Positions 12,448 to 63,036 of a stretch of DNA of 64,000 nucleotides are shown piece after piece (the first letter of the stretch is position 1; every line of letters starts with the position of its first letter). Where the stretch lies: the NCBI GenBank assembly GCA_029168955.1, contig JAPDOI010000382.1, positions 62,001 to 126,000 on the forward strand. Reading direction: 5' to 3'. The position numbers were made by a program, and so were the translations under genes. Below the pieces are notes generated by a model, which did not search any database, was not told the origin of the DNA, and saw only the letters and a list, made by a program, of their open reading frames with translations. The DNA is from Aplectana chamaeleonis. Lineage: Eukaryota; Nematoda; Chromadorea; Rhabditida; Cosmocercidae.

Positions 12448-13950
12448 TCCACGACGTCCCGATGACTTCATCAGAAGCCCGAAGCACTTTTGGGACTATC
12501 CTAGACGGGGGGGGGGTCACCCACGATTTTCCCATGAAAATGAATGGAAAACCTGATAAAAGATGTTTGATGCTGCTATCAATCATTGTTGTTGATGAAG
12601 TTCTGTAGAAATACTTCGATTGATAGCGTTATAGATCGGTGGTTCATTCCATTTCTCACTTGAATCTTGAGTGCCCCCCCCGTCTAGGATAGTCCCGCAC
12701 TTCTCATGATGTCCCGATGACGTCATCAGAAGCCCGAAGCACTCTTGGGACTATCCTAGACGGGGGGGGGGCACCCAGGACTTTCTCATGGAAATGAATG
12801 GAAACCTTGTGAAAAGGTGCTTGATGCTGCTATCAGTCATTGTTGTTGATGAAGTTGTGTAGAAATACTTTGATTGATAGCGTTATAGATCGGTGGTTCA
12901 TTCCATTTCTGACTTGAATCTTGAGTGCCCCCGTCTAGGATAGTCCCGCACTTCTCACGATGTCCCGATGACGTCATCAGAAGCCCGAAGCACTCTTGGG
13001 ACTATCCTAGACGGGGCACCCCCGACTTTCTCATGAAAATGAATGGAAACCTTGATAAAAGGTGCTTGATGCCGCTATCACTCATTGTTGTTGATGAAGC
13101 TCTGTAGAAATACTTTGATTGATAGCGTTATAGATCGGTGGTTCATTCCATTTCTGACTTGAATCTTGAGTGCCCCCCCCCGTCTGGGGTAGGCCCGCAC
13201 TTTTCACGACGTCCCAATGACGTCATCAGAAGCCCGAAGCACTCTTGGGACTATCCTAGAGGGGGGGGGGGGCACACACGACTTTCTCATGAAAATGAAT
13301 GGAAACCCTGATAAAAGATGTTTGATGCTGCTATCACTCATTGTTGTTGATGAAGCTCTGTAGAAATACTTCGATTGATAGCGTTATAGATCGGTGGTTC
13401 ATTCCATTTCTGACTTGAATCTTGAGTGCCCCCGTCTAGGATAGTCCCACACATCTCACGATGTCCCGATGACGTCATCAGAAGCCCGAAGCACTCTTGG
13501 GACTATCCTAGACGGGGGGCACCACGACTTTCTCATGAAAATGAATGGAAGCCTTGATAAAAGGTGCTTGTTGCTGCTATCAGTCATTGTTGTTGATGAA
13601 GTTGTGTAGAGATACCTTGATTGATAGCGTTATAGATCGGTGGTTCATTCCATTTCTGACTTGAATCTTGAGTGCCCCCCCCGTCTAGGATAGTCCCGCA
13701 CTTCTCACGATGTCCCGATGACGTCATCAGAAGCCCGGAAGCACTCTTGGGACTATCCTAGACGGGGGCACCCACGACTTTCTCATGAAAATGAATGGAA
13801 ACCTTGATAAAAGGTGCTTGATGCTGCTATCAGTCATTGTTGTTGATGAAGTTGTGTAGAAATACTTTGATTGATAGCGTTATAGATCGGTGGTTCATTC
13901 CATTTCTGACTTGAATCTTGAGTGCCCCCCCCCCGTCTGGGGTAGGCCCG
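12448..13950 (+). repeat. Six ~250-bp composite satellite units
   Basis: The block CAGAAGCCCGAAGCAC recurs near 12471, 12727, 12979, 13228, 13479 and 13729, a spacing of 249-256 bp. Each unit is one 42-bp satellite monomer (as at 13951-15850) plus about 208 bp flanked by inverted repeats GGGACTATCCTAGACGGGGG and its complement. Near-duplicates GCACTCTT and GCACTTCT flank that insert, as an 8-bp target duplication would. So a terminal-repeat element inserted in a monomer and the composite was then amplified. G-run length varies among units. Confidence 0.8.
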
Positions 13951-15850
13951 CACTTTTCACGACGTCCCAATGACGTCATCAGAAACTCGAGACACTTTTT
14001 ACGACGTCCCGATGACGTCATCAGAAGCCCGAAGCACTTTTCACGACGTCCCGATGACGTCATCAGAAGCCCGAAGCACTTTCACGACGTCCCGATGACG
14101 TCATAAGAAGCCCGAAGCACTTTTCACGACGTCCCGATGACGTCATCAGAAACCCGAAGCACTTTCACGACGTCCCGATGACGTCGTCAGAAGCCCGAAG
14201 CACTTTTCACGACGTCCCGATGACGTCATCAGGAGCCCGAAGCACTTTTCACTACGTCCCGATGACGTCATCAGAAGCCCGAAGCACTTTCACGACGTCC
14301 CGATGACGTCATCAGAAGCCCGAAGCACTTTTCACGGCGTCCCGATGACGTCATTAGAAGCCCGAAGCACTTTCACGACGTCCCGATGACGTCATCAGAA
14401 GCCCGAAGCACTTTTCACGACGTCCCGACGACGTCATCAGAAGCCCGAAGCACTCTCACGACGTCCCGATGACGTCATCAGAAGCCCGAAGCACTTTTCA
14501 CGACGTCCCCATGACGTCATCAGAAGCCCGAAGCACTTTCACGACGTCCCGATGACGTCATCAGAAGCCCGAAGCACTTTTAACGGCGTCCCGATGACGT
14601 CATTAGAAGCCCGAAGCACTTTCACGACGTCCCGATGACGTCATTAGAAGCCCGAAGCACTTTCACGACGTCCCGATGACGTCATCAGAAGCCCGAAGCA
14701 CTTTTCACGACGTCCCGATGACGTCATCAGAAGCCCGGAAGCACTCACGACGTCCCGATGACGTCATCAGAAGCCCGAAGCACTTTTCACGACGTCCCCA
14801 TGACGTCATCAGAAGCCCGAAGCACTTTCACGACGTCCCGATGACGTCATCAGAAGCCCGAAGCACTTTTCACGACGTCCCGATGACGTCATCAGAAGCC
14901 CGAAGCACTCTCACGACGTCCCGATGACGTCATCAGAAGCCCGAAGCACTTTTCACGACGTCCCGATGACGTCATCAGAAGCCCGAAGCACTCTCACGAC
15001 GTCCCGATGACGTCATCAGAAGCCCGAAGCACTTTCACGACGTCCCGATGACGTCATCAGAAGCCCGAAGCACTTTCACGACGTCCCGATGACGCCATCA
15101 GAAGCCCGAAGCACTCTCACGACGTCCCGATGACGTCATCAGAAGCCCGAAGCACTTTTCACGACGTCCCGCTGACGTCATCAGAAGCCCGAAGCACTCT
15201 CACGACGTCCCGATGACGTCATCAGAAGCCCGAGGCACTTTTCACGACGTCCCGATGACGTCATCAGAAGCCCGAAGCACTTTCACGACGTCCCGATGAC
15301 GTCATCAGAAGCCCGAAGCACTTTTCACGACGTCCCCATGACCTCATCAGAAGCCCGAAGCACTCTCACGACGTCCCGATGACGTCATCAGAAGCCCGAA
15401 GCACTTTTCACGACGTCCCCATGACCTCATCAGAAGCCCGAAGCACTCTCACGACGTCCCGATGACGTCATCAGAAACTCGAGGCACTTTTCACGACGTC
15501 CCGATGACGTCATCAGAAGCCCGAAGCATTTTTCACGACGTCCCGATGACGTCATCAGAAGCCCGAAGCACTTTCACGACGTCCCGATGACGTCATCAGA
15601 AGCCCGAAGCACTTTTCACGACGTCCCCATGGCCTCATCAGAAGCCCGAAGCACTCTCACGACGTCCCGATGACGTCATCAGAAGCCCGAAGCACTTTTC
15701 ACGACGTCCCCATGACCTCATCAGAAGCCCGAAGCACTCTCACGACGTCCCGATGACGTCATCAGAAACTCGAGGCACTTTTCACGACGTCCCGATGACG
15801 TCATCAGATGCCCGAAGCACTTTTCGCGACGTCCCGATGATGCCATCGGA
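13951..15850 (+). repeat. 41-42 bp tandem satellite, about 45 copies
   Basis: The monomer begins CACGACGTCCCGATGACG, continues TCATCAGAAGCCCGAAG and ends CACTTTT, alternating with CACTTT or CACTCT variants, which gives 41- and 42-bp units. Most monomers hold the 12-bp palindrome GATGACGTCATC, whose centre TGACGTCA is the consensus cAMP-response element bound by CREB/ATF bZIP proteins. Monomers are nearly identical, so the array is recently homogenised. Apparent reading frames across it come from the repeat. Confidence 0.95.
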
Positions 15851-16183
15851 ATCCCCATTCACCTACAAATCGATTACTTACCAGCCTACGTACCCCCTAC
15901 CAACTTACCTGTCTGCCAAGTTGATTGCCTGCAACCATTGGCAGTGGCTATTAGCAGTGAGGACTGAAAAGCGTGACGGCCTACGGCTCACGGCCTACGG
16001 CGCACACCATGAAATTTTCTTAAGCTTTCGGGCTCACAACTTTGTTATTTGTGAAGCGATTTTGCTGAAATTCGGACAGCAGGTGTCTTCTGGACCCCTT
16101 CGCTTATATCCAGAAAGAAATCTTCAGAAAGATTCTATAAACTATTTTATAAAATTCTAAGTGATCACAAGGCCTAGGCAAAA

Positions 16184-21676: not shown

Positions 21677-21723
21677 CAGCGCCTCTTCTTCTTCTTCTTC
21701 TGCAGCCACAGAGAGGGTCCTGT

Positions 21724-24700
21724 CATAGATTGAGGAACTGAGCCACAAGCGTCGGATTCTCCCACAGATCTACTGGTGTTAACGATGTCGGTCTCATCGG
21801 GCAGTTGAAAAGGTGCGCAGTAGTATGCCCTTTATTACCACAATCCGGGCACTCGTCAGGTCTGCTGCTATCGATCTTATGTAAATAAGACATAAGCATG
21901 GGGGAGTGCCCGCAGCGCAACGAGGCAAGGGGTGCACCTGGCACGCCTACCGAGTTCCATCTCGGTTTCGCTGACCTCAGGCGGCACGACTCCGAGAATG
22001 GAGTTTACGGCGGTCTTGCATAAGTGATCCTTGACGAATTGGGTATGCTCAGCACGTAAGAGACGGAGGCGTTCTTGTTGTGCGTTGGTCCATCTCTGTA
22101 TATTGATTTTCGTGGGAGCATCGGCAAACGGCTTTCTTATACTTCTCTCTCTGACGGGGTCTAATACTCTTCGCGACGGATGATTTGGCTGCTTCAGGAT
22201 GTTTATGTACAGCTGTTGTGCATGGAGTTGGCAATGGTCCTTAACTGGCAGGATGCGAGCCTCGGCGTGTAGGTGCTCTACTGGAGAGCTTTTAGAACAG
22301 CCTGTTGCGATTCGCAATGCTCCATTTTGAATGCGCTGCAGCTTGGACCAGGATGTGTCCGACACGATATGCTGCCAGACTGGTGCAGCATACTCCAGGG
22401 CGGGCTGTACGATGGCCCTGTACGTGGTCAGGATCGTTTCTTTACTGCACCCCCAGGACGTTCCGCCGAGAGCACGTAGGACGTTAAGTCTTGTTTTCAC
22501 TGCAGCTTGCTTCTGCTCAGTGTTCTTATGAAACCTCAGTGAAGGGTCCAACACGAGTCCGAGCAGCTTAGGGAATCGGGCGGCCGGCAGGCGAGTTTCG
22601 TCCCATTTCACCATGGGATGAGCACTGTGCTCCGCAGGATCAGTGGAAAAGACGGTGACGGATGATTTAGCGGCAGAGACCGTAAGCATCTTGCTATCGA
22701 GAAAACATTTCAACTCGATCAAGTAGTCATTGATCTTACTGGCAGCTACATTTATGTCGCGATCCCGGCATAGTATAGTAATATCATCCGCATATGCTAC
22801 GACCTTGATGTCTTGGGATGAAACGGGTAGATCTTCAATATACAGACTGAAAAGAGCAGGCGATAGAACTCCTCCTTGAGGTGCACCGGCGGCAATTGGG
22901 TTGCTATTGGAGACGTGCCCTTGAAATAGCACATTTGCCCGACGTCCTTTGGTGAATGCGGTTATTTACCGCTTCTGCCAGGGTGGAATGGTAGACCTTA
23001 ATAGGCTCTCCGACAAAATGCCCAAATTTACAGTGTCAAAAGCCTTCGTCAGGTCGAGGGCTACACCTACGGTACGCTGAGGTCTCATGGCATTGAAGCC
23101 GTCCAAAACATAGCTCACAATTTCCAGCAGGGCCGTAGTGGTGGAATGTAGCTTACGGAAACCATGTTGATGCTGTTGTTTGCTATTATGTTCGGCAAGC
23201 TCCTCCACAGCCAATTTTTCTGCAACTTTGGCAATAGGTGAGAGAAGACTGATTGGCCTTTAACCTTTTGCCGTGGATGGTGATTTACCCGGCTTCGGCA
23301 ATGGGATGACGCGTGCTACTTTCCAATCTTGAGGTAATGTACAGGTGCGAAACGGTGTATTAATGACGTCAGCGAGCAGGGGTAGTAGTTCATTTGGCAG
23401 TTTCTTTAGAACTGCTGGGCTCAAACCATCTGGCCCTACTGCCTTCGAGTTACTCATTTCCTTGATAACCTTCTCGACCTGAGCGGGCGTGACTGCATCA
23501 TCTTCAGCCATGAGTGGCAATTCACAGAGTTCCCGAACAGTTATTCTATTCTGCTTCCCTCTTTTTGATTTAGTTATGAAAAAATGTTTCCCAAGAGCAT
23601 TTGCGGCCTCTTTCCCTGACTTGAAGACTCCGCCGTCGAATTCAATCGTGGAATTGTCGGCGGAGGTGAACTTTCCGGAGATCCTTTTCAAGGCCTTCCA
23701 CGTTGCTGCTGCATCATTTCTGAAGTTCATCTTCTCAGTGAACTTTTCCCAAGATTCTTTCTTGTGCCTATCAAGGTCCATCCTGATCTCATTATCCAGC
23801 TCGGCAATGTCTGGGTCAAGATGATTAGCAGCTCTCTTTGCGTCCCTTGTCCTTATCTTCTGCAGTGTCTCCCTGGTGACATTGGGAAAGAAGGTCTTGA
23901 CACGACCTTCAGGGATCGCAGCTTTCATCGCCTTCCTGATGGCATTAGAGAGGTGGCGCTCCTTCTGGTGTACATTGCCATTCCACGGATATTCGGCCGC
24001 TTGGCGGAGTGCTACCTCCCTGAACAGGCTCCAGTCTGCAAGGCCTAAATTGAGATAAGAACGATGACGAACACCTGTATAGGGAGCAAGAGAGTTAGAG
24101 AGATCGATATTGACAAAGACCGGAATGTGATCACTGGAAAGAGTTGTGGATGTAGACCAAGAGCAGGCGTTAGAGAGATTAGAAGAGACAAGGGAGATGT
24201 CTGGGCTGGAGGATCGACCGTAGGCAGGGAGACGAGTGGGCTGGCCATCGTTAAGGATAACGAGGTCGCACTCATCCGCCCAGTCTTCGACGTCATTTCC
24301 TCTAGCATCAGAATCGAGCGACGAGCAGAACGTGTGAGCATTGAAGTCACCCGCAAAGACAATTGAGGGAGATACGATGGTAGTTATGCAGCGGATATTC
24401 GACAACGATGTGCGAAAGCTACGTCTGCATTCAATTCTCTAACCAAGTGTTTGTGGTCTACCACCATCGCGAAGGAAGTCAAGTTGCGCGTCTACCTATC
24501 CGCTATTCGCCCTATCATGATGTACGGATCGGAGACGTGGGCAGCACCGAAAACGCAGATGGAAAGGTTGGATTGCACGGAGAGGAAGCTTTTTAGGCGT
24601 TTGCTTGGATATTTCTGGCCGCGTGTATGCCATAACGAAGACCTTTACAAGGAAATCGACGCAGTACATCAACGCTTGACACGAGGGAGGTGCCAGCATC

Positions 24701-25850
24701 TCCTAACGCCATCTCAGGCAGCAATGGAAAGTCGACTTCGACTGCTCGGGCATATACTAAGAAGAACGCCGGATCGTCTCGTACAACACGCTTTAAAAAT
24801 GCTTCCAAATCCTGTCTGGAAACGGCCACCTGGGCGTAGGCGAAAGTTCTGGACGGATGTGGTTAAAGAGGATTTAAAGTCACTCGGCATCGAAAGACAG
24901 TTCAGGCGCGATGTTTCGTTTCGCAGGAAATGGAATAGTGACAGCTGGATGGAATGTGTTCAAATTGTGGCTGAAGACCGTGAAAAATGGACACGGCTGA
25001 CTACTAGGACGGCACACCTCGGTGAAGATGCGGAATGACCGCGTCAGGCGAAAGCCAACCGATTAAGTAAGTAAGTCAAGAGAGCAGTCATACAGCTGCT
25101 TGAGTAGAGGGATAGGGTTGTAGGTTGGTGGACAGGATGTAGGAGGAGGAATGTATATATTGAAAAGAGAAAGTGGAGGTTTTAGAGGTAGATGGATGGG
25201 GATGTACGCGAGGGGGGCATCCACTGGAGTGTTTGGAGTGATGTGAGAGGGAAGAGACGACAGAACAAAAGTAGAGACTCCGCCTCCCTGAGATGACCTA
25301 GGATTATGAGATGCAGTATAGCCCGGGATGTTTGGATGTCGAGAGGTAGCAGAGGGAGAGAGTTTGGTTTCCTGAACCATGATAACATCCGGGTGATGAG
25401 TACGGGCGAAGAGAGATAATTCAGAAAGCTTGGCGCGAAGGCCGTTGAGATTGATATGTACAATAAAGAGAGGGCGGTTGGTATTAGATGAGGAATTGGA
25501 GTTACTGGAGGCGGAGCACACAATACAACGAAAGGAAGAATCGTGGTGCCTCACAGAACTGAGACCCGAACAAGAGAAGTGCACCCACCTTTGGCATCCA
25601 AAACATTGGACGCTGGTTCCATACCAATTGACATCTCTGTCGCATGTGGCACATGGGTAGTTCTTCTTCTTCGCGGGTCCTGGGTTCCTCTCGACGCCGG
25701 CTCTTTGCAGTAGGATCTTCAGGAGAGCTGCGGCCAGCCAGCACCTCTCCCATGACAAAAACCCTCTCCGCGGAGGGATTGACGTCGGTTTGCACGGAGG
25801 TGGTCTTCTTTCCTCCACACTGCCACGGCACGAACGTACGACATCTCGGC
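21724..25850 (-). pseudogene. LINE polyprotein of copy 1, broken
   Basis: Catalytic motifs survive: GDFNAH in the endonuclease, DLTKAFDTVN, GAPQGGVLSPALF and YADDITIL in the RT, and CPDCGNKGHTTAHLFNC near the C-terminus. The frame shifts at about 21945, 22945 and 23250, and the RTE insertion separates YDCS from VFAGDFNAH. Similarity to the intact copy is high throughout, so the disruption is fairly recent. Confidence 0.8.
24374..25079 (+). mobile_element. 5'-truncated RTE fragment inside LINE copy 1
   Basis: The + strand matches the last ~700 bp of the RTE at 27165-30360 from RCAKATSAFNSL onwards, including YGSETWAAPKTQMERLDCTE and RTAHLGEDAE, and ends in TAAG repeats. This copy has CGA (Arg) where the longer copy has a stop at 29959-29961. 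Confidence 0.85.
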
Positions 25851-25853
25851 AGC
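25781..25853 (-). ncRNA. HDV-like ribozyme candidate at LINE 5' end, copy 1
   Basis: Hand-folded from the first 73 nt of the element; see the second copy at 61316-61388 for the pairing. Only two bases differ from that copy, at element nt 45 and 65, and both fall in unpaired positions (L4 and J4/2). All proposed stems are unchanged. Confidence 0.55.
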
Positions 25854-25863
25854 CAGCGCCTCT

Positions 25864-36865: not shown

Positions 36866-55365
<18,500 letters not shown>

Positions 55366-56530: not shown

Positions 56531-57923
56531 GTTCAGTACTTATCTCCGACGAACTGTGTTGATTGGCTGCAAATTCATCCGCACACCCCGGTCTCCACAG
56601 CCGCAGCAGGAAAAAGCAGTTTCCGTGCTCCACGGCTGTAAAGCCACGATTTTGGGGTACCCTCCAAAGTAAAGGTATCGAGTTCAAATTGGATTAGAAG
56701 CGACCTTCATCCATTTCCAGCCTCCTGTCCAAAAATGGGCTCCCTAGCTAAATTTTAACTGGTAGCACAAGATCGTGAACGCCGTCTGAAAAAAAGGAGA
56801 TTAACAGAGAAAACTTGCGGTTTTTCAAATTTTTCTCGAATTCTAGGAAACCATTCTAAACAAATTTTGGGCATTATATACAACTTTTTGCGCTCTTTTC
56901 AATGCAATTTAGAGCTGATTTCTACTTTCAGCCTGAACTTGAATTTTGAAAAACGGGTTGCACGCGTGGCCGATTCAAAACCAAATCAAGTGCGCGCTTC
57001 GCGCGCCCCACAATTATGGCCCAGTTTCAACGCTAAAGCCGGAATCATACTATGGCCAAGCGCGGTTGTGTGATTTCTCAACGGGTGGTGAATTTGTCGA
57101 TAGAATTGTAGCACAAAAATGAAAATTTCTCGTGAGGATCGTAAGAATTTCGACAACGGGAATTCGATGGCGGAATCGTAGAGATTTTCCAAAGTTTTTT
57201 GACCAAGGGGAGGGGTCGTAGCTCTACCGAGGTCCTAAACAACGAGCAGCACAGTGCATATCAGGCATAACGATTTTGGTCGGTGTTGAGGGCAAAAATT
57301 TCGTCGCGTCGCTCATGGCTGAAAGTATGATTCCGGCCAGGGATGTGCGTAATTACGATCAACGACCAACGGGCTTCTTGGGTGTTACGGCTAACGACTA
57401 ATCAGATTAAAAATACTTTCGTAAGCAGGCCCAAAATTCGTTAGAGAGTCAATAGTCATTTACATTGCGCTCTAACCCAAGGCAGGATTGATACATATTT
57501 GGCCTTTTGGTTGTTCTAGGTTAATGGTTCAAAATAACCATAGCCTTCAGTATTTATGATTTCCAATGAATCTGCTAGGCAGTTCTCGAACCCCCCACCG
57601 AACGCTGCGCAAGGTTAGGCGTTGCATCCATGCCGTTTCGCGTCGGTCGCGCTACTCTATTGTAGGCTCACTGAACCGGTTCCGGCACTGACCGACTCCA
57701 GTGGAGATTTTCGCAGAGGACACTATCAGAGGTCATAATATGGAGCGGTTTTTGCAGGCCACAACGACGGGAACAGTATCCGATAACTGGATTGCAAAGG
57801 GTGCTGTCCTTCGATTTTCAGTCATAAATTCGAGATATGTGGCTTCTATAAAGTGGTTCGGAGACCTCTCAGGGGTCAGATTTTAACTTGGGTGCTAAAT
57901 TCTTCCAACCTTTCCCCATTATG
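56531..57923. other. No gene recognised; repeat debris
   Basis: Contains a GTGCGCGCTTCGCGCGC hairpin near 56991, a hAT-type MITE relic near 57100-57235 (GGGGTCGTAGCTCTACC), and a drifting array at 57345-57420 seeded by CCAGGGATGTGCG. Confidence 0.4.
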
Positions 57924-57936
57924 GGAACAAGCTCTC

Positions 57937-60900
57937 TTCTTCTTCTTTTTCTTTGCAGCCACAGGAAGGTTTTTGTCAAAGGTTCAAGAAACGGGCGACT
58001 GAAATCGGATCCGTCCACAAATCCATTGTTGTAAGAGTGGTAGGCCTCTTTGGGGATTCGAATAGGTGTTCAGTTGTGTGGCCACGGCTACCACAGTCCG
58101 GGCACTCGTCCGGCTTACTGCGATCGATCTTATGCAAGTATGACATCAGCATAGGGGAATGACCGCAGCGTAACGAGGCAAGGGTACTTCTAGCCCGCCT
58201 ACCGAGTTCCATCTCGGTGTCGCTGACTATGGGTGGTACGACCCCCAATATGGGATTGACGGTCATCCTACTCAAGTGATCCCTGACGAACTTGGTGTGC
58301 TCCGCACGTAAAAGACGCAGACGATCCAGTTGGGAGTCCGTCCATCTTTGTATATTAACTTTTTCGGGAGCATCCGCAAAAGGTCTCCTGATATGTCTCT
58401 CTCTCACGGGATTCATGATCCTTCTTAATGGGTGGTCAGGCTGCTTGACAATGTTAATAACCAGTTGCTGCGCTTGGAGTTGGCAGTGCCCCTTAACTGG
58501 CAGAATTCGGGCTTCAGCATGAAGATGTTCCACTGGGGTGCTTTTAGCACACCCTGTGACAATCCGAAGAGCAGCATTTTGGACTCGCTGCATCTTTGTC
58601 CACGATGAATCCGATATCATGTGCTGCCATACCGGTGCAGCGTACTCCAACGCCGGCTGCAATATTGCCTTGTAGGTAGTCGAAATTGTCTCCTTGCTAC
58701 TTCCCCACGACGTTCCTCCCAGAGCTCGTAGGACGTTGAGCTCTGCTTTCACTGTAGCCTGTTTCTGCTCAGTATTCTTGTGGAACCTCAACGAAGGATC
58801 CAATTCTAGGCCGAGCAGCTTAGGAAAACGTGCGGCAGGCAGACGAGCGTCTTCCCAGTTCACAACGGGGTGAGCGCAGTGTTCCTTAGGGTCAGTGGAG
58901 AAAACTGATACAGATGATTTAGCGGCAGAAACAGTGAGCATCATATCATCGAGAAAGTTCTTCAGAACGATGAGGTAGCTATTGATCTTGCGTGCAGCTA
59001 CATTAATGTCTCTGTCCCGGCACAAGATGGTGATGTCATCCGCATACGCAACGACTTTGATGTCACTTGGGGGGACGGGCAAATCTTCCAGGTAAAGACT
59101 GAACAGAGCAGGCGGTATGACTCCTCCTTGAGGGACACCGGCAGCGATCGGAATGCTATTAAAGACATGTCCCTGAAACAGCACCTTTGCTCGGCGCCCT
59201 TTGATGAGTGCTGTAATCCATCGCTTCTGCCAAGGCGGGATGGTGGACCTCAATAGCTTATCAGACAGTATGCCCAAGTTGACAGTGTCAAACGCCTTCG
59301 TGAGGTCCAAGGCTACTCCAACAGTGCGTTGAGGCTTGGTGGCGTTGAAACCATCCAAAACATGGCTCACAATCTCCAGCAGCGCCGTGGTGGTAGAGTG
59401 TAATTTGCGGAATCCATGCTGGTGCTGCTGATTGTTATTATGCTCGGCAAGCTCCTTGACGACCAGTTTCTCAGCGACCTTTGCGATTGGTGATAACAGA
59501 CTTATTGGCCTGTATCCCTTAGCCGTCGATGGTGATTTACCTGCCTTAGGCAACGGAACGACGCTTGCCATTTTCCAGTCTTGGGGTACGATGCACGTGC
59601 GAAAGGATGTGTTGATGACGTCAGCCAGGATTGGCATAATCTCAGTCGGCAGTTTCTTCAAGACCGCTGAACTAATGCCATCCGGCCCTACAGCCTTCGA
59701 GTTGCGCATCTCTTTTACCACCTTTTCAATCGGCGCGGGCGTCACTGCTTCTGCTTCATTCATGAGTGGCAACTTACAGAGCTCTCTTACAGTCACTCGA
59801 TTCTGTTTCCCTCTCTTAGCCTGAGTTATGAAAAAATTCTTTCCGAGAGCAGTTGCAGCCTCCTTTCCCGATTTGAAGACTCCATTCTTGAACTCGATCG
59901 TAGAGTAGTTGGTGGAGGTGCTCTTGCCAGAGATTTTCTTTAGAACTTTCCAAGTTGACGCTCCATCACTCTTGAAATTCATCTTCTCCGTGAATTTCTC
60001 CGAACACTCCTTCTTGTGCTTGTCCAGATCTCGCTTGATCTCGCTATCCAGCTCAGCAATGGTCGGATCCAGGTGATCTGCCACTCTCTTTGCATCCCTT
60101 GTCCTTATCTTCTCCAAGATTTCCCTGGTGACATTGGGAAAGAAGGTCTTAACTCGGCCCTCCGAAATGGCGGCTTTCATTGCCTTGCGAATCGCGTCGG
60201 TCAAGTGACGTTCTTTCTGGTGCACGTTTCCATTCCATGGGTAGTCAGCCACATGGCGAAGTGCCACCTCCCTGAACAAGCGCCAGTCTGCAAGGCAAAG
60301 ATTAAGATAAGACCTTTGACGGATACCTGAATAAGGAGCAAGAGAATTAGAGAGATCGACATGGACAAAAACGGGGATATGATCACTGGACAGAGTTGTA
60401 GCTGTCGACCAAGAGCAGGCGCTGGAGAGATTAGATGATACAAGAGAGATGTCTGGACTAGAGGATCGGCCGTTGGCCGGGAGACGAGTGGGCTGATCAT
60501 CTTTGAGAATGACCAGATCGCACTCCTCCGCCCATTCTTCGACGTCTTCTCCTCTAGCGTCAGTGTCAAGCGACGAGCAGAATGTATGAGCATTGAAGTC
60601 GCCTGCGAAGACAACAGAGGGTGAAAGGGAACAGTCGTACAACTGCTTGAGTGAGGGAATAGGGTCATAAGATTGGGGACAGGACGTGGTAGGAGGGATA
60701 TAGATATTAAAAAGAGATATAGAGGTTTTAAGAGGGAGAGGGATAGGTAGGTACTCGAGAGTACCGTCCTTCGGTGTGTTTGGTATGATATGAGAGGGTA
60801 GATTTGATAATACGAAAGTGGAAACTCCTCCGCCGAGAGCTGACCTTGGAGCATGATAAGCAGTGTAGCCAGGAATGTTAGGGTGACGTGCGGTAGTAGA

Positions 60901-61388
60901 AGGAGAAAGTTTGGTTTCCTGAACCATTGTGACATCAGGATGATGAGTACGAGCAAAAAGAGAGAGTTCAGACAACTTGGCACGAAGGCCATTGAGGTTA
61001 ATATGAAGGGAGAGGGGGCGGTTAGTAAATGAGGAATCAGAGTTACTGGGGGCAGAGCAAAGAACACAACGGAAGGAAGGATCGTGATGCCTCACAGAAC
61101 TGAGACCCGAACAGGAGAGATGCACCCACCTTTGGCATCCGAAGCACTTGACGCTTGTTTTCCTCCATGTGACATCCTTGCCGCACGTGGCGCATGAGTA
61201 CTTCTGAGCGGGTCCTGGATTCCTCTCGACGCCGGCCATTTTTAGTAGAATCCTTAGGAGAGCTGCAGCCAGCCAGCATCTCTCCCATGACAAAAACCCT
61301 CCACGCGGAGGGGTTGACGTCGGCTTGCACGGAGGTGGTCTTCGTTCCTCCACACTGCCACGGCACGAACGTACGACATCTCGGCAGC
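57937..61388 (-). mobile_element. Full-length LINE with intact coding frame
   Basis: The 13-bp duplication GGGAACAAGCTCT (57924-57936, 61389-61401) fixes the ends, giving 3,452 bp. The 5' end is GCTGCCGAGATG, the same first base as copy 1. The 3' end is a GAAGAAG-type tail after a ~40-nt UTR. The coding frame is uninterrupted and all endonuclease and RT motifs are present, so it could be recently active. By motif content it belongs to the jockey superfamily; the exact clade is not determined. Confidence 0.95.
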
Positions 61389-61431
61389 GGGAACAAGCTC
61401 TAAACATCACCACGCACGAATCAAACGCCAT
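57976..61431 (-). CDS. LINE polyprotein: 2A-like, PHD finger, endonuclease, reverse transcriptase
   Basis: The 1,151-codon frame encodes the protein that nicks target DNA and copies the element RNA into it. Order: 2A-like GVERNPGP (67-74); PHD-like finger C80-C83, C96-C99, H104-C107, C122-C125; AP endonuclease with SLHINLNGLRAK, VQETKL, VFAGDFNAH and SSDHIPVF; RT with AVGPDGISSAVLKK, YRPISLLSPIAKVAE, DLTKAFDTVN, GVPQGGVIPPALF and YADDITIL; and a C-terminal CPDCGSRGHTTEH finger. No RNase H is seen. The only upstream Met codons lie in flanking DNA: the first 14 codons come from outside the element. The native start is therefore unknown; see findings. Confidence 0.9.
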   Translation of the reverse strand: MAFDSCVVMFRACSRCRDVVRSCRGSVEERRPPPCKPTSTPPRGGFLSWERCWLAAALLRILLKMAGVERNPGPAQKYSCATCGKDVTWRKTSVKCFGCQRWVHLSCSGLSSVRHHDPSFRCVLCSAPSNSDSSFTNRPLSLHINLNGLRAKLSELSLFARTHHPDVTMVQETKLSPSTTARHPNIPGYTAYHAPRSALGGGVSTFVLSNLPSHIIPNTPKDGTLEYLPIPLPLKTSISLFNIYIPPTTSCPQSYDPIPSLKQLYDCSLSPSVVFAGDFNAHTFCSSLDTDARGEDVEEWAEECDLVILKDDQPTRLPANGRSSSPDISLVSSNLSSACSWSTATTLSSDHIPVFVHVDLSNSLAPYSGIRQRSYLNLCLADWRLFREVALRHVADYPWNGNVHQKERHLTDAIRKAMKAAISEGRVKTFFPNVTREILEKIRTRDAKRVADHLDPTIAELDSEIKRDLDKHKKECSEKFTEKMNFKSDGASTWKVLKKISGKSTSTNYSTIEFKNGVFKSGKEAATALGKNFFITQAKRGKQNRVTVRELCKLPLMNEAEAVTPAPIEKVVKEMRNSKAVGPDGISSAVLKKLPTEIMPILADVINTSFRTCIVPQDWKMASVVPLPKAGKSPSTAKGYRPISLLSPIAKVAEKLVVKELAEHNNNQQHQHGFRKLHSTTTALLEIVSHVLDGFNATKPQRTVGVALDLTKAFDTVNLGILSDKLLRSTIPPWQKRWITALIKGRRAKVLFQGHVFNSIPIAAGVPQGGVIPPALFSLYLEDLPVPPSDIKVVAYADDITILCRDRDINVAARKINSYLIVLKNFLDDMMLTVSAAKSSVSVFSTDPKEHCAHPVVNWEDARLPAARFPKLLGLELDPSLRFHKNTEQKQATVKAELNVLRALGGTSWGSSKETISTTYKAILQPALEYAAPVWQHMISDSSWTKMQRVQNAALRIVTGCAKSTPVEHLHAEARILPVKGHCQLQAQQLVINIVKQPDHPLRRIMNPVRERHIRRPFADAPEKVNIQRWTDSQLDRLRLLRAEHTKFVRDHLSRMTVNPILGVVPPIVSDTEMELGRRARSTLASLRCGHSPMLMSYLHKIDRSKPDECPDCGSRGHTTEHLFESPKRPTTLTTMDLWTDPISVARFLNL
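61316..61388 (-). ncRNA. HDV-like self-cleaving ribozyme candidate at LINE 5' end
   Basis: Numbering from the first element base: P1 pairs nt 1-6 with 30-35 (GCUGCC with GGCAGU, including G1-U35 wobble); P2 pairs 9-15 with 67-73 (GAUGUCG with CGACGUC, one G-U); P3 pairs 17-19 with 27-29 around a 7-nt L3 (20-26); P4 pairs 38-42 with 54-58 (GGAGG with CCUCC). J4/2 (59-66, GUGCAAGC) has C62 followed by AA, where HDV ribozymes place the catalytic C75. Order, lengths and the G1-U wobble agree with the HDV family, and cleavage would fall exactly at the element's first base. The fold is by hand and untested. Confidence 0.6.
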
Positions 61432-62058
61432 TCTCCAGTGAGGCCGCCAGGCCTATGCGTCGAACTCGCTCGGAAACGGAAACCATACATAATTTAAAGT
61501 ATCTCCTTAACCACTCCGCCTATGCTGCACGAAAGCCTAATACTCGAGAGTGTGTGTTTATCTATTTTTGTCATTTTTTTCGGTAAGAAAAGAAACAATA
61601 TGGGGAACCGAGAAAATTTACAACTCTGCTTTTTTCCTAGTGAAAAATTTGCCATTCTGCGCTATATGATGTTATTTGCCATCTACCGACGGAACAAGCT
61701 CTAAACCACGCAAGCGCCCGGCTCGCGACGCTGAGCAAAGAACACTTAGTGCAGAGTCGGTGCGATTCTCCGTGTTGTCACCATCGGGTAGATGGCAAAT
61801 AACATCATATAACGCAGAATGGCAAATTTTGCACTAGGAAAAAAGCAGAGTTGTAAATTTTCTCGGTTTCTTTTCTTACCGAAAAAATGACAAAATTAGA
61901 TAAACACACACTCTCGAGTATTAGGCTTTCGTGCAGCAAAGTCGGAGTGGTTAAGGAGATATTTTTAATTATGTATGGTTTCCGTTTCCGAGCGAGTTTG
62001 ACGCATAGGCCTGGCGGCCTCACTGGAGAATGGCGTTTCGATTCGTGCGGGGTGATGT
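61404..62058. repeat. Foldback element, about 280-bp arms
   Basis: Arms 61404-61687 and 61786-62058 are inverted copies (CACGAAAGCCTAATACTCGA and its complement, ACATCACC / GGTGATGT at the edges). The ~100-bp centre repeats the GGAACAAGCTCTAAAC that flanks the LINE. Confidence 0.8.
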
Positions 62059-62572: not shown

Positions 62573-63036
62573 AAAGGCAGCATACACGCTCGTAAACGTG
62601 GTTGGGAAAACAATGTGAATCGAACCGTATGCCTTACAACATAATGCCTACGCATTTTGAAGTGTCAAAAACGACCCACAATGCCGCTACATGAGTTAGA
62701 AATTGGCCCCGCCCTGTATTTTCACGCCCCCTGTAATTGCCCTTTTCCTCCAATGCAGGGTTGTTGGGCCATCTTCGCCATCAGTGATGTGTGTGGTTTA
62801 TTTGTTAGGCAATCTACCAACAGTACCAACGGTGAATATGACCCAGTAACCTTGCGTTGCAGGAAAAGGGCAAATACAGGGGGCGTGAAAATACAGGGCG
62901 GGGCCAACTTCTAACTCATGTAACAGCATTGTGGGTCGTTTTTGACACTTCGAAATGCGTAGGCGTTGTAATCTGGGCCACACCATTCTATTTCCGTAGT
63001 TATCTCAATCACTTTTACGAGCGTGTATGCTGTCTT
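62573..63036. repeat. Foldback element with related AAGGCAG ends
   Basis: AAGGCAGCATACACGCTC and GAGCGTGTATGCTGTCTT start arms of about 180 bp, continuing with GGGGCGTGAAAATACAGG and its complement. It abuts the preceding MITE at a shared TTTAAA. The terminal AAGGCAG suggests the same transposase could mobilise both. Confidence 0.75.

Follow-up and report, generated by a model that had tools for sequence, protein, structure and literature searches.

A predicted HDV-like self-cleaving ribozyme at the 5' end of 2A-bearing APE-type LINEs in a nematode genome

Introduction

What fixes the first base of a LINE, so that insertion after insertion begins with the same nucleotide, whatever the sequence in front of it? 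The question is raised by a stretch of 64,000 nucleotides from the nematode Aplectana chamaeleonis (contig JAPDOI010000382.1, positions 62,001 to 126,000; hereafter the window), in which two separate insertions of one LINE start at an identical position of the element. A reading of this DNA made from the letters alone (the sequence-only reading) had placed an HDV-like ribozyme at precisely the 5' end of this LINE, and the analysis reported here supports that placement by the fold, by compensatory change and by a fixed 5' end in three LINE families, which we denote A, E and D. We consider it probable, at roughly 0.9 and as judged from sequence comparison, that the first 73 nt of the element (72-98 nt in its relatives) form an HDV-like self-cleaving ribozyme which sets the 5' end of 2A-bearing LINEs of the APE type. 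If this is true, self-cleaving ribozymes head very abundant LINEs of a hookworm-type genome and the origin of LINE RNA becomes directly testable; it also raises the matter of how translation would proceed on an RNA lacking both a cap and an in-frame AUG ahead of the 2A.

The LINE and its two copies in the window

Copies A and B were confirmed as two insertions sharing one first base, with coordinates and ends as originally claimed and each framed by a target site duplication (TSD) (Table 1). The single ORF of LINE A matches PF14529/PF03372 (APE endonuclease) and PF00078 (RT) in Pfam, and the combination of APE and RT in one ORF with TSDs of variable length (accepted lengths 7-13 bp) is that of an APE-type non-LTR retrotransposon. 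RNase H, which follows the RT in the L1Tc/ingi clade, gave no Pfam match in LINE A, and a Cys/His finger downstream of the 2A was read by eye and is not called by Pfam. The eight closest long proteins show 31-35% identity to LINE A where aligned, and no protein was matched when the N-terminal 115 aa served as query. Copy B is interrupted by an RT-like ORF whose best match, at 74% over 98% of the query, is a protein of Necator americanus, and 119 of the 120 matches listed (161 in total) are named Necator; the label 'hookworm-type', which the sequence-only reading had used, is fair because Necator dominates the matches of this ORF inside copy B.

Table 1. Coordinates of the LINE copies, their predicted ribozymes and the associated features in the window
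Feature	Position	Strand	Remarks
LINE copy A, full-length, 3453 nt	57936..61388	-	APE endonuclease + RT, GAA-rich 3' end
TSD of copy A, 13 bp, GGGAACAAGCTCT	5' copy 61389..61401, 3' copy 57923..57935		
HDV-like ribozyme (predicted), copy A	61316..61388	-	nt 1 (G1) = 61388; first 73 nt of the LINE
P1 (predicted), nt 1-7/29-35	61382-61388/61354-61360	-	wobble G1.U35 (A-type)
P2 (predicted), nt 9-15/67-73	61374-61380/61316-61322	-	
P3 (predicted), nt 17-19/27-29	61370-61372/61360-61362	-	
L3 (predicted), TTCGTGC	61363-61369	-	
P4 (predicted), nt 38-42/54-58	61347-61351/61331-61335	-	
Putative catalytic C62	61327	-	opens J4/2
2A-like peptide LAAALLRILLKMAGVERNPGP	61210..61272	-	first codon CTG
ORF frame of LINE A	57976..61386	-	open through the ribozyme
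LINE copy B	21689..25853	-	interrupted at 24373-25077 by another LINE fragment
TSD of copy B, 10 bp, CAGCGCCTCT	21679-21688 / 25854-25863		
HDV-like ribozyme (predicted), copy B	25781..25853	-	nt 1 = 25853
LINE D, decayed, interrupted, 2A-like AGIEANPGS	38424..42566	+	end is that of the last tblastn match
HDV-like ribozyme (predicted) of family D, decayed, P1' and L3 mutated	38424..38521	+	5' end of LINE D

A double pseudoknot in the first 73 nucleotides

The nested double pseudoknot of HDV type, which had been fitted by hand, fits base for base in a pairing check done on the common A-type sequence, with G65 in copy A. Its elements follow the order P1-P2-P3-L3-P3'-P1'-P4-J4/2-P2' in three sequence families. 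T29 is common to P3 and to the optional seventh pair of P1, which has 6 bp if P3 has 3 bp, and P1.1 is C22-G36 in the A-type. J4/2 reads C62-A63-A64-A65 in the common A-type sequence; copy A carries G65 (CAAG), as do 3 of the 30 fetched copies including the window copy L002, and A65 is found in the other 27. The C that opens J4/2 is followed by N-A-A/R, giving CAAA in the common sequences of A, E, D and a further set of copies, the C-type, and U20, C22, G25 and the G after P1' are present in all four. An L3 signature of U..C..G together with P1.1 is a hallmark of HDV-like ribozymes; here the signature is mutated in single copies and in the D copy of the window. The G1.U wobble at the predicted cut is present in A, C and E, and D has G1-C instead. 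The minimum free energy (MFE) fold of copy A is another, nested structure, while that of copy B includes P1 and P4.

An AUG lies within P2 (nt 10-12 of A, window 61377-61379, minus strand) and recurs at the same place in E, out of the main ORF frame; the reading frame that it opens has 41 codons in A and 33 in the E copy of L045.

Descriptor searches and the odds of a chance fit

A strict descriptor was drawn up from HDV-like geometry, with P1 of 6-7 bp starting with G, P2 of at least 5 bp, P3 of 3 bp, L3 of 7-8 nt with U..Y..G, a G after P1', C-N-A-R, and P4 of at least 3 bp; since it was written after the site had been seen, its hit count is by itself not blind. In the window (128 kb of strands) it matches solely at 61388 and 25853, both LINE 5' ends, and replacing the catalytic C of the pattern by T, A or G leaves no match in the window.

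These matches might reflect the chance fit of one conserved 5' end to a permissive pattern, and loose descriptors do match at control rates. The relaxed form (one mismatch per helix, P4 optional) gives 5 matches in the window with C at the catalytic position, against 8 with T, 10 with A and 5 with G, both real sites being also among the G matches through a one-base shift; in the 100 kb adjoining the window it gives two C and three A matches, one of the former falling on the LINE 5' end of an old E copy. Even strict controls can match by chance, as seen when the window was scanned together with regions L001-L050 (242,670 b, overlaps counted), where the T and A controls gave one chance match each, at the same place in L029, and G gave none. 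Dinucleotide shuffles, however, produce only 4 strict matches in 51.2 Mb and 49 in 768 Mb, a single one of the 49 having P2 of at least 7 bp and P4 of at least 5 bp, and shuffles of the 200-nt 5' end produce 1 in 100,000; E and D moreover fit at their own 5' ends, with covariation that speaks against chance, and we regard a chance fit as extremely improbable.

The strict form had no C match in the 100 kb adjoining the window, where the form without the P4 rule had one T match. No Rfam model matches any of these RNAs; as each model is specific to its family and does not represent the pseudoknot, we do not take this as defining. No relative was confirmed in viral and prokaryote contigs scanned by pattern.

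Copies of the A/B and C types across the genome

The genome searched comprises 1.037 Gb in 2087 contigs, in which first-look candidates for the four probes numbered 135 (A), 2096 (E), 5039 (C) and 10951 (D), and 40, 40, 40 and 150 of these respectively were scored. Of the 40 candidates scored for the A probe (nt 1-73), 35 include nt 1, and the others start at nt 2 (four) or nt 3 (one); 30 A/B-type copies, the window copy L002 included, were extracted from the 35. In all 30 the flank gives way to identical sequence at nt 1, where identity rises from about 0.25-0.32 to 1.0, and 28 of the flanks are distinct (L001 equals L002, and L021 equals L027). Within the ribozyme only sites 45 and 65 vary among these copies, a uniformity which is not used as evidence of constraint because the copies were selected by nt 1-73; that evidence was replaced by a comparison of A with B and by a C sample selected on the element's body. 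The boundary at nt 1 is itself informative because the flanks are unselected.

TSDs were surveyed in 20 longer regions (L031-L050, plus-strand matches) and in the window's copies A and B. They were accepted in 12 of the 22 copies, abutting G1 exactly in nine and leaving extra nucleotides before it in three (1 in L044, 5 in L034 and 10 in L037), which may represent either untemplated addition or uncut read-through. For the other 10 of the 22 no acceptable TSD was found (none or doubtful), and the same rule also missed the TSD of an E copy.

The C sample came from a body probe starting at nt 74, with 20 copies fetched of the 39 that lay outside the query's own place. Seventeen of the 20 begin with G and 13 pass the strict descriptor; of the seven that fail, three do so because they begin with another base. 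In its majority sequence this sample departs from the common A sequence at three sites, all in L4. One C-type copy, whose identity to A across the element is 71%, is old and no longer has the catalytic C.

Some irregular arrangements were also seen. Two ribozyme heads lie 219 nt apart in L022 (1501-1607, and 1720 onward), the LINE sequence of the first stopping at nt 107, and two lie 934 nt apart in L013 (reverse complement; 1501 and 2435). At L053:8043-8072, ribozyme nt 5-34 are intact and unrelated sequence follows P1', so that this is either a chimera or another family sharing the core.

Two further families with their own 5' ends

In the scan of the window together with L001-L050, the strict descriptor gave, besides the A/B-type sites, one C match of unrelated sequence, at L045:2904, exactly where an A-type copy is interrupted. 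Given the T and A control matches in L029, it is the place of this site, and not the match alone, that counts. The interrupting element, LINE E, has 46-51% protein identity to A, and its copy within the A copy is accompanied by a 12-bp duplication of A nt 2716-2727 abutting G1 (BLAST coordinates). The E 5' probe gave 41 matches, 36 of them from nt 1, and 20 of these 36 were fetched; all begin GGATCC and have unrelated flanks, with identity passing from 0.25 to 0.98-0.99 at nt 1, and 16 pass the strict descriptor, 2 the relaxed one and 2 neither.

LINE D is more distant, at 25-40% identity to A depending on the segment. Relaxed descriptors found nothing upstream of LINE D in the window, where the copy is mutated, and the family was recognised only from relatives. 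These were sought by N-terminal protein, and the 8 copies fetched are thus a protein-selected set. All eight begin GCTCT and have unrelated flanks, and in 9 of 9 copies, the window's included, identity rises from 0.26 to 0.98 at nt 1. Three of the eight pass a descriptor, and only the form without the P4 rule, for which the null with P2 of at least 7 bp is 4 matches in 192 Mb. The other five (L105-L109) have a 9-nt L3 with an extra T and fail every descriptor form tried, and in one of them P2' was not found, after a deletion. The longer loop of this subfamily points either to a tolerated L3 length or to a weak ribozyme.

Compensatory change and constraint

In an alignment of 10 sequences (eight A/B/C and two E), 98.8% of cells are paired and 6 pairs have changed on both sides. 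Among 500 shuffles none reaches the observed pairing or covariation score, 2 reach the number of pairs changed on both sides and 107 the pair-type count; controls in which the pairing was slid have at most 57.6% of cells paired. When A, E and D are each represented by one chosen copy, all 16 pairs of P1, P2 and P3 are standard and 11 of the 16 differ at both bases between two families or more, P4 being left out of the count because it does not align. All three preserve the L3 pattern U-N-C-N-N-G, the G that follows P1' and C-N-A-A. Loss of complementarity in P1 and P2 across copies, which the sequence-only reading had named as the outcome that would tell against it, is not what is seen between families, since P1, P2 and P3 are rebuilt in E and D; single old copies lose pairs or the catalytic C, as expected of dead copies. 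By this comparison, at least three families have built one predicted fold from different bases.

Constraint is also visible between A and B. Of the 73 ribozyme sites they differ at 2, nt 45 (L4) and nt 65 (J4/2), neither of which lies in a helix; at nt 115-760 they differ at 140 of 646 sites (Fisher p 1.6e-5), and among third codon positions at 87 of 214.

A conserved 5' segment might alternatively be an internal promoter that starts transcription at G1, with the fold secondary or absent. The precedent is L1Tc, in which, as described in the account of L1TcRz/Pr77 (PMC4748587), the 77-nt 5' head is both promoter and ribozyme and carries CGTG at +25 to +28. Such a promoter could fix the 5' end and conserve the DNA as well, and might act beside a ribozyme, as in L1Tc; by eye, CGTG occurs at +22 to +25 and +27 to +30 in the A-type and at +24 to +27 in E. 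D, however, has CGTT at this place, and a DNA promoter leaves the paired changes in P1, P2 and P3, the catalytic C and the L3 pattern unexplained, making this an improbable account of the segment.

The open reading frame and the 2A-like peptide

The first in-frame ATG of the LINE A element is the one inside the 2A peptide, which itself opens with CTG. In the relatives P0001 and P0002 an initial M stands at the place of this CTG, followed by a 20-residue stretch ending NPGP. The 2A consensus is given as D(V/I)ExNPGP in a report of 2A sequences in LINEs (PMC4981915); the putative 2A here reads GVERNPGP, without the consensus D. CTG occupies the codon in 24 of 30 A-type and 20 of 20 E copies, the remaining A-type copies comprising five that the search rule did not find and one with CTA. 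A readable 2A is present in 24 of 30 A and 18 of 20 E copies (8 of the 50 are without one), and among those that have it 22 of 24 (A) and 16 of 18 (E) keep an open frame all the way from nt 1, with an in-frame Met upstream of the 2A in 4 of 24 and 1 of 18, respectively.

A frame open from nt 1, mostly with no Met before the 2A, fits a role in translation, and the RNA might have kept its shape but no longer cut, being retained to support a non-AUG start in the manner of an IRES, or as a binding site for the protein of the element. This would leave unexplained why three diverged families retain the catalytic C and the full active-site signature and why the element starts precisely where the cut is predicted, and we judge it still less probable than a promoter.

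A possible route from transcript to insertion, and known systems

Self-cleavage would act as follows. The LINE would be transcribed within a longer RNA, whose 5' head would fold into the double pseudoknot and cut the backbone just before G1, the J4/2 cytosine C62 probably serving as general acid, like in HDV. The freed RNA would start at G1 with the ribozyme intact and may be used as the template, so that reverse transcription to its end would yield a full-length copy from G1 at any target. Taken together, the unvarying first base, the predicted fold and the catalytic C point to self-cleavage before G1, with the freed RNA as template.

Several known systems are comparable. The CPEB3 ribozyme has a 7-nt L3 and a one-pair P1.1 beside a U.U, and is alike in loop length and in P1.1; it differs in belonging to a single-copy mammalian intron, and it passes the relaxed descriptor and fails the strict one. 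R4 elements use a restriction-like endonuclease, whereas the enzyme here is of the APE type. R4 of Ascaris and Dong of Bombyx are reported to have an HDV-like structure at the element's 5' junction, with cleavage shown for Dong; R4, also a nematode element, is rDNA-specific, whereas the flanks here are unrelated (PMC3774820 for R4 and Dong). The ribozymes of R2 share the fold and the role, P1 being typically 6-7 bp, P2 at least 5 bp and P4 highly variable, but R2 resides in 28S rRNA genes and in many species is cut upstream of its 5' end, as set out in PMC3774820. HDV-like ribozymes are also reported from the nematodes C. japonica and P. pacificus (PMC8256844). A parallel in architecture is L1TcRz/Pr77 of the L1Tc/ingi clade, where an AP-endonuclease LINE encoding a 2A carries an HDV-like ribozyme at its 5' end; L1Tc is described as having RNase H and a nucleic acid chaperone (PMC4748587), whereas the LINE here has no RNase H match and, as read by eye, a Cys/His finger after the 2A.

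The sequence-only reading had held that HDV-like ribozymes are known at the 5' ends of other elements, which the sources bear out for R2, R4, Dong, RTE and L1Tc (PMC3774820, PMC4748587), and that it knew of none described for this LINE, in agreement with which no paper on such ribozymes in Ancylostoma, hookworm or CR1 was found in the open-licence literature. The ribozyme thus looks new for these LINE families, its kind being known from other jumping genes. More speculatively, and on balance unlikely, a 5' HDV-like ribozyme, an N-terminal 2A and a non-AUG start could be one old module of APE-type LINEs, common to the nematode families and L1Tc, in which the ribozyme would make an uncapped 5'-OH RNA whose fold would direct initiation at the CUG opening the 2A.

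Neighbouring repeats

Inverted-repeat elements at 61423-62038 and 62574-63036 adjoin the insertion site of copy A, with arms of 157 nt (96%) and 226 nt (81% complementary), respectively. Elsewhere in the window, at 12450-16160 and 36997-37174, there are long tandem arrays of 42-bp and about 250-bp units and a perfect self-complementary simple repeat.
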